This document shows, piece after piece, positions 37,812 to 40,889 of a DNA stretch of 64,000 bases. Numbering within the stretch: the stretch's first letter is position 1; each line of letters begins with the position of its first letter. The notes under the pieces are model-generated. The model did no database searches, was not told the origin of the DNA, and saw nothing but the letters and a program-made list of their open reading frames with translations. The stretch comes from Bacillota bacterium (GTDB lineage: Bacteria; Sysuimicrobiota; Sysuimicrobiia; Sysuimicrobiales; Segetimicrobiaceae), in assembly GCA_021324975.1 (NCBI GenBank), contig JAJPIA010000066.1:1-64000 (forward strand), read 5' to 3'. The translations under genes and the position numbers were made by a program.

Positions 37812-38990
37812 ATGACGGGGACGGAGCGTACGCCGCGGCGGATGGACCACGGATCCGCTGAGCGGCCAGTCGCCCTCGCGGCGGGGGGTCTTCTCGCCCT
37901 TGCGGCTGCCATCGGCGTCGGCCGCTTCATCTACACGCCGATCCTTCCCCTCATGGTGGACGGCCTTCGAATGACGAAGGCGACGGCGGGACTGCTGGCG
38001 TCGGCAAATTTCGCGGGCTATCTTGTGGGCGCGCTTGCCGCTGCCGCACCGATCCGGCACGGCACGCGGCGCTCGTGGCTCATCATCGGGTTGACAGCGA
38101 GCGCCATCACGACGGGCGCCATGGCGCTGGGGTCGTCCACCGCAATGTTCCTCATCGTGCGTTTCATCGGTGGTGTCGCCAGCGCGCTTGTGCTCGTCTT
38201 CGCGTCCACGCTCGTGCTCGACCGGCTCCATGAGATGCGCCGACCCGGTCTGGCCGCCGTTCACTTCGCCGGCGTCGGCGCCGGCATCGCGTGCGCGGCG
38301 ATGCTTGTCACCGCGATTGTCGCGCGCGGCGGGGATTGGAGGGTGCTCTGGCTGGCCGGCGGCGGCCTGTCCCTCCTCGCCTGCTACGGTGTGGCCCGCT
38401 TGGTCCCAAGCCGCGCCGAGCGGCCTCCCGCCATAACACCACGCCCCGCCCAGAATAGCCGCACGCTGCCATGGTTCGTCGCAGCGTACGGCTTGTTCGG
38501 ATTTGGCTATGTGATCACGGCGACCTTTCTCGTCGCGATCGTCCGGCAGTTGAGCGAGTTGCGCGCGCTGGAGCCGTATGTGTGGCTCGTGACCGGTCTC
38601 GCTGCGGCCCCTTCCGTCGCGGTGTGGACCTCGATCGGAGATCGGATCGGGGTGATCCCAGCTTTCGCGCTGGCATGCGCTGTGGAAGCGTGCGGTGTGG
38701 CCGCGAGCGTGCTCTGGCTTGCGCCCGCCGGCGTCCTGCTGGCGGCCGTGTTCCTCGGCGGTACGTTCATGGGGATCACCGCACTCGGGTTGATCGGAGC
38801 CCGGCAGCTTTCTCGGGGAGATGCGAGGGGGACGCTCGCCGTCATGACGGCCGCATTTGGGCTCGGCCAGATCGTCGGGCCGGCCTTCGCCGGCATGATC
38901 TACGATGCCACGGCCAGCCTCGTCGTGCCTTCGCTTGTGGCGACGGGTGCGCTGTTGCTCGGCGCATTGCTCGTCATCCTCGTCCGCTGA
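37812..38990 (+). CDS. MFS transporter, YbfB/YjiJ family
   Basis: 392 residues with about 12 hydrophobic helices. The first helix reads AIGVGRFIYTPILPLMVDGL, the hallmark of the YbfB/YjiJ group. The first-half MFS loop appears as APIRHGTRRSWL. ATG at 37812; no strong ribosome site. Transports an unknown small molecule, likely by proton coupling. It stands alone on the plus strand between divergent and downstream regulatory genes. Confidence 0.9.
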   Translation: MTGTERTPRRMDHGSAERPVALAAGGLLALAAAIGVGRFIYTPILPLMVDGLRMTKATAGLLASANFAGYLVGALAAAAPIRHGTRRSWLIIGLTASAITTGAMALGSSTAMFLIVRFIGGVASALVLVFASTLVLDRLHEMRRPGLAAVHFAGVGAGIACAAMLVTAIVARGGDWRVLWLAGGGLSLLACYGVARLVPSRAERPPAITPRPAQNSRTLPWFVAAYGLFGFGYVITATFLVAIVRQLSELRALEPYVWLVTGLAAAPSVAVWTSIGDRIGVIPAFALACAVEACGVAASVLWLAPAGVLLAAVFLGGTFMGITALGLIGARQLSRGDARGTLAVMTAAFGLGQIVGPAFAGMIYDATASLVVPSLVATGALLLGALLVILVR

Positions 38991-39077
38991 GCCTCGCCCG
39001 CGAACTCCAGTCCGACGCAGTTCGAGACAGGGTGTGCGCCGGGCGTCACCGGTCCGAGAATTGCTTCGCTCCAGTTA

Positions 39078-39106
39078 TTGACATGTCGTAACCGCTCGGT
39101 TACTAT
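39078..39106 (+). promoter_or_regulatory. Predicted arsR-AHSA1 promoter
   Basis: Perfect TTGACA (39078-39083), 17-base spacer, TACTAT (39101-39106). Transcription should start near 39112-39114, only 5-7 bases before the ATG at 39119, so the message is nearly leaderless. No ribosome site is present. The first operator palindrome fills the spacer. Confidence 0.65.
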
Positions 39107-39126
39107 ATTAATAACCAAATGGTTAC
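39088..39126. promoter_or_regulatory. Tandem palindromic operators for the ArsR regulator
   Basis: Two copies of the same pattern: GTAACC-gctc-GGTTAC (39088-39103, perfect) and ATAACC-aaat-GGTTAC (39111-39126, one end mismatch). Their centres are 23 bases apart, about two helical turns. The first lies between the -35 and -10 boxes and the second covers the start codon. Autorepression by the encoded ArsR protein is the natural reading. Confidence 0.75.
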
Positions 39127-39448
39127 CATCGAGAAAACTCACCGTGATGCGATCTTCCGGGCGGTGGCCGACCCGACCCGGCGTCGGATCCTGGCGCTGC
39201 TGCGCGGCGGCCCGTACTCCGTCGGACAGATCGCCGCCAACTTTCGAACCAGCCGGCCGGCGATTTCAAAGCACCTCCGGGTCCTGCGCTCGGCCGGCCT
39301 GGTCGGGACTCGCCGGCATGGCGCCGCTCGGATTTGCCGCCTGAACGCCAAACCGCTCCGGGTGATCGACCGGTGGCTCCAGGACTACGAAATCTTCTGG
39401 GGTGAGACAATGCGCAGCCTCAAGACATACGTCGAGGGGAAGCGATGA
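39119..39448 (+). CDS. ArsR-family winged-helix regulator
   Basis: 109 residues. FRAVADPTRRRILALL (residues 13-28) and the recognition region FRTSRPAISKHLRVLRSAGLV (about 42-62) are typical of the SdpR/YdfF-like ArsR group without a metal-binding cysteine motif. The HTH covers nearly the whole protein. It overlaps the next gene by 4 bases (ATGA). This group is usually paired with an AHSA1-domain protein and represses its own operon. Confidence 0.93.
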   Translation: MVTIEKTHRDAIFRAVADPTRRRILALLRGGPYSVGQIAANFRTSRPAISKHLRVLRSAGLVGTRRHGAARICRLNAKPLRVIDRWLQDYEIFWGETMRSLKTYVEGKR

Positions 39449-39915
39449 CGCGAACAAATGCGAGCGATACCATCGTTCAGGAAATCATCATCCGTGCGCC
39501 CGCCGAGCGGATATTCCGGGCGCTGACCGACCCCGCTGAACGCGTGCAGTGGTGGGGCGCGGAAGGGCGATTTCACACAACCCAGATGGAATCGGATCTG
39601 CGCCCCGGCGGCAGGTGGGTGATGCGCGGCATTGGCATGGGCGGGAAGCCGTTCACCGTGAGCGGCGTCTACCGCGAAATCGATCGTCCTCGCCTGCTGG
39701 TGTTCACCTGGCTACCCGACTGGCAGGGCAACGCAACGGAAACGGTCGTGCGCGTCGACCTGGAAGAAAAGGAAGGCGCCACAACGGTCCGCCTCACGCA
39801 CTCGGGGCTCACAACGGAAGATTCGCGCAGGAGCCACCGCGGCTGGCCGGACGTCCTTTCCTGGCTGCGATCGCACGTCGAGCGGAAAGCGGAACCGCCG
39901 GACAAGTGTGAGTGA
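39445..39915 (+). CDS. SRPBCC / AHSA1-domain protein
   Basis: 156 residues with a full AHSA1 fold: IVQEIIIRAPAERIFRALTD at the N-terminus, VQWWGAEG near 37, DLRPGGRWVMRG near 52, and TTVRLTHSGL near 115. Proteins of this type bind small hydrophobic ligands; the ArsR partner suggests a ligand-responsive two-gene unit. The ATG overlaps the arsR stop, so translation is coupled. Ligand is unknown. Confidence 0.92.
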   Translation: MTRTNASDTIVQEIIIRAPAERIFRALTDPAERVQWWGAEGRFHTTQMESDLRPGGRWVMRGIGMGGKPFTVSGVYREIDRPRLLVFTWLPDWQGNATETVVRVDLEEKEGATTVRLTHSGLTTEDSRRSHRGWPDVLSWLRSHVERKAEPPDKCE

Positions 39916-39974
39916 TGTGATCATTGCCTGCACGACTTCTTGACGCCCGGTGTGGCGAAGCGATTCCGTGGCGC

Positions 39975-40889
39975 CTAGGACATTCGCAGCGTAGGATCCA
40001 GCGTGTCCCGCAGGGCGTTCCCAAAGAGATTGAATCCCAATACCACGAGAAAGATCGCCAGCCCGGGGAAGTTGACGAGCCAGGGCGCCGTGAACATGAA
40101 GTCGCGTGCGCCCACCAGCAACGCTCCCCACTCCGGAGAGGGCGGCTGCGCGCCCAGACCCACGAAGCTGAGGGCGGCCGCCGCAAGGATCGCGGTGGCA
40201 AACTGCAGCGTCGCAAGCACGACAATGGACGAAACAGTGTTCGGAAGAATGTGGACAAACATCACGCGCGCGTCGCGCGCGCCGAGCGCGTTGGCCGCGA
40301 GCACGAAGTCGTGACGCCGGATCGTCAGGACGTTGCCCCGCACGAGCCGCACCCAGCCCGGGACGTTGCTGATGCCGATGGCAATCATCGTGTTGCCGAG
40401 CCCGGGGCCGAGGATCGCGACGATTGCGAGCGCAAGGAGGATGTAGGGCAGCGCCAGCATGATATCGATCAAGCGCATCAGCAGCAGGTCCACCCAACGG
40501 CCGTAGTAGCCGGCAACGATTCCGCAGGTTACGCCGAGGACCATCGCGATGCCTACCGAGATGGCCCCGATTACCAGCGTGATGCGCGTGCCGTAGATGA
40601 TCCGACTCAGCTCGTCGCGCCCCAGGGCGTCGGTGCCGAGCCAGTGTAACGATGACGGAGGCCCGAGCTGGCTGAGCGGGTCGAGGCGATACGGATCGTA
40701 CGGGGCGAGGAATCCGGCAAGGGCGGCCGTTGCCAGGAGAAGCATGATGATCGCCCCGCCGATCTGCGCCGACCGTTTGCGAAATAGGGCCGCAAGGATT
40801 GCGGCGGTCCCGGAGCGGCGTGCGCGAATCCCAGGGCGCTCGGCTTCCTGGAGGGTAACCGCGGTGGAGCGCGAGAGCGGCGCCGGCAT
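39975..40889 (-). CDS. Dpp/Opp-type ABC transporter permease (DppC family)
   Basis: 304 residues. Blocks: HWLGTDALGRDELSRIIYG, DIMLALPYILLALAI, AANALGARDARVMFVHILPN, FVGLGAQPPSPEWGALLV and NLFGNALRDTLDPTLRMS (the usual GD is GN). ATG at 40889, 14 bases after the dppB stop. It is last in the operon binding protein-dppB-dppC. Confidence 0.94.
   Translation of the reverse strand: MPAPLSRSTAVTLQEAERPGIRARRSGTAAILAALFRKRSAQIGGAIIMLLLATAALAGFLAPYDPYRLDPLSQLGPPSSLHWLGTDALGRDELSRIIYGTRITLVIGAISVGIAMVLGVTCGIVAGYYGRWVDLLLMRLIDIMLALPYILLALAIVAILGPGLGNTMIAIGISNVPGWVRLVRGNVLTIRRHDFVLAANALGARDARVMFVHILPNTVSSIVVLATLQFATAILAAAALSFVGLGAQPPSPEWGALLVGARDFMFTAPWLVNFPGLAIFLVVLGFNLFGNALRDTLDPTLRMS

Follow-up and report, generated by a model that had tools for sequence, protein, structure and literature searches.

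Among the studied ArsR-type regulators, the closest case to the locus described here is Rv2034 of Mycobacterium tuberculosis, encoded in the Rv2034-Rv2036 operon, an autorepressor that was footprinted on a palindrome with a 4-base spacer, from -30 to +3 of its own coding strand (PMC3338718). According to the same study, Rv2034 did not respond to the metals tested, it also regulates phoP, groEL2, and dosR, and its gene overlaps the next one, encoding a Polyketide_cyc2 (SRPBCC-type) protein (PMC3338718). In the 64,000-nucleotide stretch of DNA analysed here (the window), the gene for a likewise ArsR-type regulator of 109 amino acids (39119-39448, forward strand) is directly followed by an overlapping gene for an AHSA1/SRPBCC protein of 156 amino acids (39445-39915, forward strand; Pfam AHSA1, 99.2 bits), and palindromes with a 4-base spacer lie at its own promoter and start codon, the latter a region that the Rv2034 footprint also reaches. 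While Rv2034 has one palindrome, CCGTAAGT-N4-ACTTACGG, with another half-site (PMC3338718), the window carries two, and in contrast to the several targets of Rv2034, the genome of the window shows no other strong site. Among the matches listed for the open-licence literature, judged by title and opening lines of the abstract, we found no description of an ArsR gene with one operator across its start codon and another in its promoter. Altogether, this locus is most likely, judging from its sequence, a variant of the autoregulated ArsR-SRPBCC pairs, a familiar kind, with a twin placement of the operators that is conserved in relatives.

Profile comparisons place the regulator in the ArsR/SmtB winged-helix family, with scores above the curated cut-offs for both Pfam HTH_5 (PF01022; 60.3 bits, cut-off 22) and NCBIfam HTH_metalloreg (NF033788; 83.3 bits, cut-off 55). 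The SdpR profile (NF033789), whose family name denotes an autorepressor of its own operon, aligned to residues 12 to 87 with 73.5 bits, under its curated cut-off of 100, leaving the protein SdpR-like and outside the SdpR family proper. The partner differs as well, since SdpR goes with an SdpI-type immunity protein, whereas the partner in the window is an AHSA1 protein. The best PDB sequence matches (3f6o, SrnR 7p6f, and 3f6v; E values of 1e-16 to 5e-14) all belong to the ArsR family, a likeness drawn from sequence comparison. Metal sensors of this family carry a cysteine-based metal site, such as the CxC of ArsR. No CxC occurs in the 109 residues of the regulator, which include one cysteine (C73), and the name arsR is therefore not to be taken as arsenic sensing: as used by the sequence-only reading, it holds as a family name by the profiles, but the cysteine content gives no evidence for arsenic sensing or for a metal site. 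The sole cysteine, C73, is invariant in the six orthologs and occupies the same position in the PDB relative 3f6o; it could be a possible redox sensing point.

The promoter comprises a -35 box TTGACA (39078-39083), whose TTGA is invariant across the six-way alignment, and a -10 box TACTAT (39101-39106), both on the forward strand with a 17-base spacer, and represents the sole sigma-70-type match within 38500-40500 (10/12; 0.3 expected from shuffles). Candidate operator site 1, GTAACC-GCTC-GGTTAC (39088-39103, forward strand, by pattern match), covers most of this spacer and extends into the -10 box by 3 bases. Candidate operator site 2, ATAACC-AAAT-GGTTAC (39111-39126, forward strand), covers both the predicted start point of transcription and the ATG at 39119, whose A and T close the site 2 spacer and whose G opens the right half-site; from this ATG on, the right half of the site encodes Met-Val-Thr. 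The sequence-only reading had announced GTAACC-N4-GGTTAC twice, 23 bases apart, once in the promoter spacer and once over the ATG. Both placements and the distance proved right (23 bases start to start and centre to centre, with a 7-base gap between the sites), while the repeat itself holds for the core TAACC-N4-GGTTA but not for the full hexamers, which are exact in site 1 and have one mismatch in site 2. Upstream on the same strand lies a gene for an MFS transporter (37812-38990; Pfam MFS_4, YbfB type), with no evidence of operon membership; the predicted regulated unit is arsR plus the AHSA1/SRPBCC gene.

We regard it as probable that this region controls a two-gene arsR-AHSA1 operon whose first product is a non-metal ArsR-type autorepressor, the two operators serving to block RNA polymerase. 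A distance of 10 bp between half-sites fits a single dimer of the ArsR type. We infer binding of one such dimer to each of the two operator copies (AACC-N4-GGTT core, half-sites 10 bp apart), where the site 1 dimer would occlude the promoter core and the site 2 dimer would cover the start point and first codons, the two together blocking both the binding and the escape of RNA polymerase. When free of its signal, the protein would shut off transcription of both genes, its own and AHSA1. Since the spacing of 23 to 24 bp is slightly more than two helical turns, the two dimers would sit near the same face of the DNA and may cooperate; as read from the sequence, this spacing allows a contact between dimers and does not prove it.

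A protein search across 61 genomes, including that of the window, yielded five genes taken as orthologs, with identities of 68 to 72% in genomes G006, G036, G007, and G009 and of 45% in G001. Site 2 lies over the ATG in 5/5 orthologs, exact in G006, G007, and G009 and with one mismatch in G001; its degradation in G036 (two mismatches) counts against our preferred explanation. Four of the five also keep site 1, without a mismatch in G036 and G009 and with a single one in G006 and G001, G007 being the ortholog that lacks it, and the centres of the two sites are 23 bases apart in the window, G006, and G001 and 24 in G036 and G009. The pair of sites is not indispensable, since G007 still has the gene and site 2 without site 1, which likewise counts against our preferred explanation. 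This genome would suit the idea that one palindrome alone matters for repression, site 2 being the essential one and the other weak or a relic, as would five loci outside the ortholog group with a palindrome across their start codon (L014, L022, L048, L060, and L061), in each of which our scan found one AACY-N4-RGTT site. We nevertheless consider this idea unlikely, given that site 1 is present in five of the six members, window included, at 23 to 24 bp from site 2 and below a sequence of background identity.

Mean ungapped pairwise identity among the six members, anchored on the ATG, was 86% from -8 to +9, 50% from +9 to +36, and 76% from +36 to +100, the DNA over the start codon thus being more conserved than the adjoining coding sequence. 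Blocks from -200 to -41 gave 26 to 29%, identity beyond the -35 box staying at background level in these six members. For the site 1 region (-32 to -14), this ungapped measure gave 41%, a value depressed by the shifts of one base in spacing and by the loss of the site in G007. The second codon reads GTT in the window, G006, G007, and G009, GTG in G036, and GCT in G001, i.e., valine in five of the six members and GTT in four of those five, GTT accounting for 6.9% of the valine codons in a sample of 211 genes from the genome of the window. In the same-genus genome G001, the ortholog (L013; G001:C68:8676-8990, minus strand) has its recognition-helix region in another frame, with the normal frame on both flanks, which would reflect either two frameshifts or assembly errors. 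Both operators persist there with one mismatch each, next to a -35 box TTGATT, and on this sequence their persistence despite an out-of-frame recognition helix counts against the autorepressor reading.

The palindrome over the ATG could also act in the RNA instead of as a DNA operator, by folding into a hairpin that masks the start codon, and in a message folded from 39100 a hairpin of 5 pairs can indeed arise, its loop and stem including the AUG. When folding begins at 39111 or 39113, close to the predicted start, this hairpin is absent from the minimum-energy structure; moreover, site 1, of the same sequence, is not transcribed, and the substitutions in G036 and G001 each break one pair without compensation. 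Such a hairpin is thus extremely improbable, and we set it aside on the folds from near the predicted start.

Returning to the autorepressor reading, no in-frame start precedes the ATG at 39119 in the reading frame of 109 amino acids, and 5/5 orthologs begin at the same place. Transcription usually starts 6 to 8 bases below the -10 box. Here, 12 bases separate the end of this box from the ATG, which gives an expected leader of 5 to 7 bases and a predicted start at 39112-39114 on the forward strand, and the position of the box agrees with the start proposed earlier. No GGAG/AGGA-type ribosome site precedes arsR in the window, as the sequence-only reading had noted, and none was seen by eye directly before arsR in 6/6 members. 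For the second gene, a ribosome site GAGGGG lies at 39434-39439 (forward strand), a GAGG/GGAG site is present at 6/6 junctions, and the 4-base ATGA overlap of the arsR stop with the next frame recurs in 6/6 members, with second frames similar in sequence, the Pfam assignment to AHSA1 applying to the protein of the window. The transcript, with about 5 to 7 bases before the AUG, would be translated without a ribosome site, and AHSA1 from its own ribosome site with coupling across the ATGA overlap. Genome-wide, a strict promoter at leaderless distance was found for 3 of 151 sampled first genes of this genome, by a crude test, and the leaderless signal sought in 353 kb was at best weak. This weak signal, which gives no sign that such promoters are common here, counts against our preferred explanation.

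Both occurrences of the strict core TAACC-N4-GGTTA in the 4.43-Mb genome are at the arsR promoter. The core count itself is no excess, since a backwards control pattern also gave 2 places; the unexpected feature is the 23-bp pairing on one promoter. Likewise, two matches with up to 2 mismatches in the 64-kb window alone are not unusual (21/100 shuffles). As for the pairing, a Markov-1 simulation of 8 Mb contained 49 AACC-N4-GGTT sites and no pair 15 to 40 bases apart. Sites with 0 to 2 mismatches occurred at 53 places genome-wide versus 52 for the backwards control, so that we claim no regulon, and with a core unique to this promoter and no excess of weaker sites, the arsR operon is the only evident target. 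The link between the sites and the protein is made by position and conservation, which would also accommodate a regulator encoded elsewhere binding the twin sites, or a true promoter further upstream with a longer leader. Both are very unlikely: the core is found nowhere else in the genome, 38500-40500 offers no second sigma-70-type match, and identity beyond the -35 box does not exceed background. The compact autoregulation proposed from the sequence alone is supported by the ortholog palindromes, their fixed placement, the ribosome-site contrast between the two genes, and a genome otherwise free of strong sites, but the arrangement is shared with relatives and is not unique.

Operators across the start codon recur beyond this ortholog group. 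We aligned 51 distinct ArsR loci (duplicates merged) by homology frame and scored a start codon as embedded when at least 5/6 arm bases were complementary in the same register; L110 was skipped (score below 80) and L033 was not included. The start codon is inside the palindrome in 12/50 loci, window included, or in 13/51 with L105, left out of the former count as it had been fetched because of its embedded site. The remaining loci have 0 to 3 complementary arm bases, except G036 (L003) and the Ensifer plasmid (L120) with 4; L003 is outside the 12 by these 4/6 arms though its ATG sits at the same place. The embedded set includes the clade of the window, a TCAACC-N4-GGTTGA subfamily (L022, L048, and L060, plus L061 with one mismatch), a TTAACC-N4-GGTTAA locus (L014), and named Arthrobacter and Caballeronia plasmids. 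At the promoters of other ArsR subfamilies the palindromes differ, as would be expected if every palindrome served the protein encoded after it. In the genome of the window itself, the paralog L061 (also L107; G000:C109:43011-43334) has its ATG inside TCAACC-GAAT-GGTTCA, directly after a -10 box.

ArsR genes on Burkholderia, Ensifer, Nostoc, Arthrobacter, and Caballeronia plasmids have AACC-N4-GGTT-like palindromes upstream, as in the window, forming twins in the first three and enclosing the ATG in the last two. Unlike in the window, our scan detected a spacer site and a start-codon site together in none of the 12 plasmid loci (about 40 to 47% protein identity; hand-picked among the 40 matches listed of 273 records). 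Four of these 12 have an annotated SRPBCC neighbour (Tsukamurella, Natrinema, Nostoc, and Streptomyces LRE541), the other 8 stretches being unannotated. Twin AACY-N4-RGTT sites occur in 7/51 loci, namely the window, G006, G009, L055, and the Burkholderia, Ensifer, and Nostoc plasmids. The tandem AACC-N4-GGTT-like palindromes of these three plasmids (L112, L120, and L121, respectively) are 16 to 19 bases apart, tighter than in the window.

For a broader reading, we see the case as evenly balanced: an operator across the start codon may be a recurrent design in several ArsR-AHSA1 subfamilies and phyla, with different half-sites, which the clade of the window would have doubled through the promoter-spacer site. 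In such a design, the central AT and the right half-site GGTT would spell ATG-GTT (Met-Val), the first codons being shared by operator and reading frame. The locus offers a compact, testable candidate for an autoregulatory unit and, for a group of ArsR-type regulators, a clear candidate for the operator. The recurrence of start-codon operators suggests that where messages are nearly leaderless, the same bases can answer to both DNA-binding and coding constraints. Such operators could also help to place the starts of ArsR-SRPBCC pairs, and to identify their targets, during annotation.

Across 386 genomes, a strict promoter followed by an embedded operator (3 to 9 bases from the -10 box to AACC, a pattern that misses subfamilies with a gap of 1 to 2 bases) was found in four, all in the family of the window, and the twin pattern in three, all orthologs of the window; the backwards control gave 1 match for each of the two patterns. 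With a gap of 1 to 2 bases, 6 places were found in 5 of 43 genomes of the class, and none with the backwards control. Five of these 6 places open an ArsR-like frame of 92 to 136 amino acids, followed in four by an AHSA1-like frame, as judged by eye. The sixth (L110; G006:C12:21222-21264) has a promoter and an embedded operator ahead of a 25-amino-acid frame starting MVEY and then an AHSA1-like frame, apparently a broken or decayed arsR with its control region kept.
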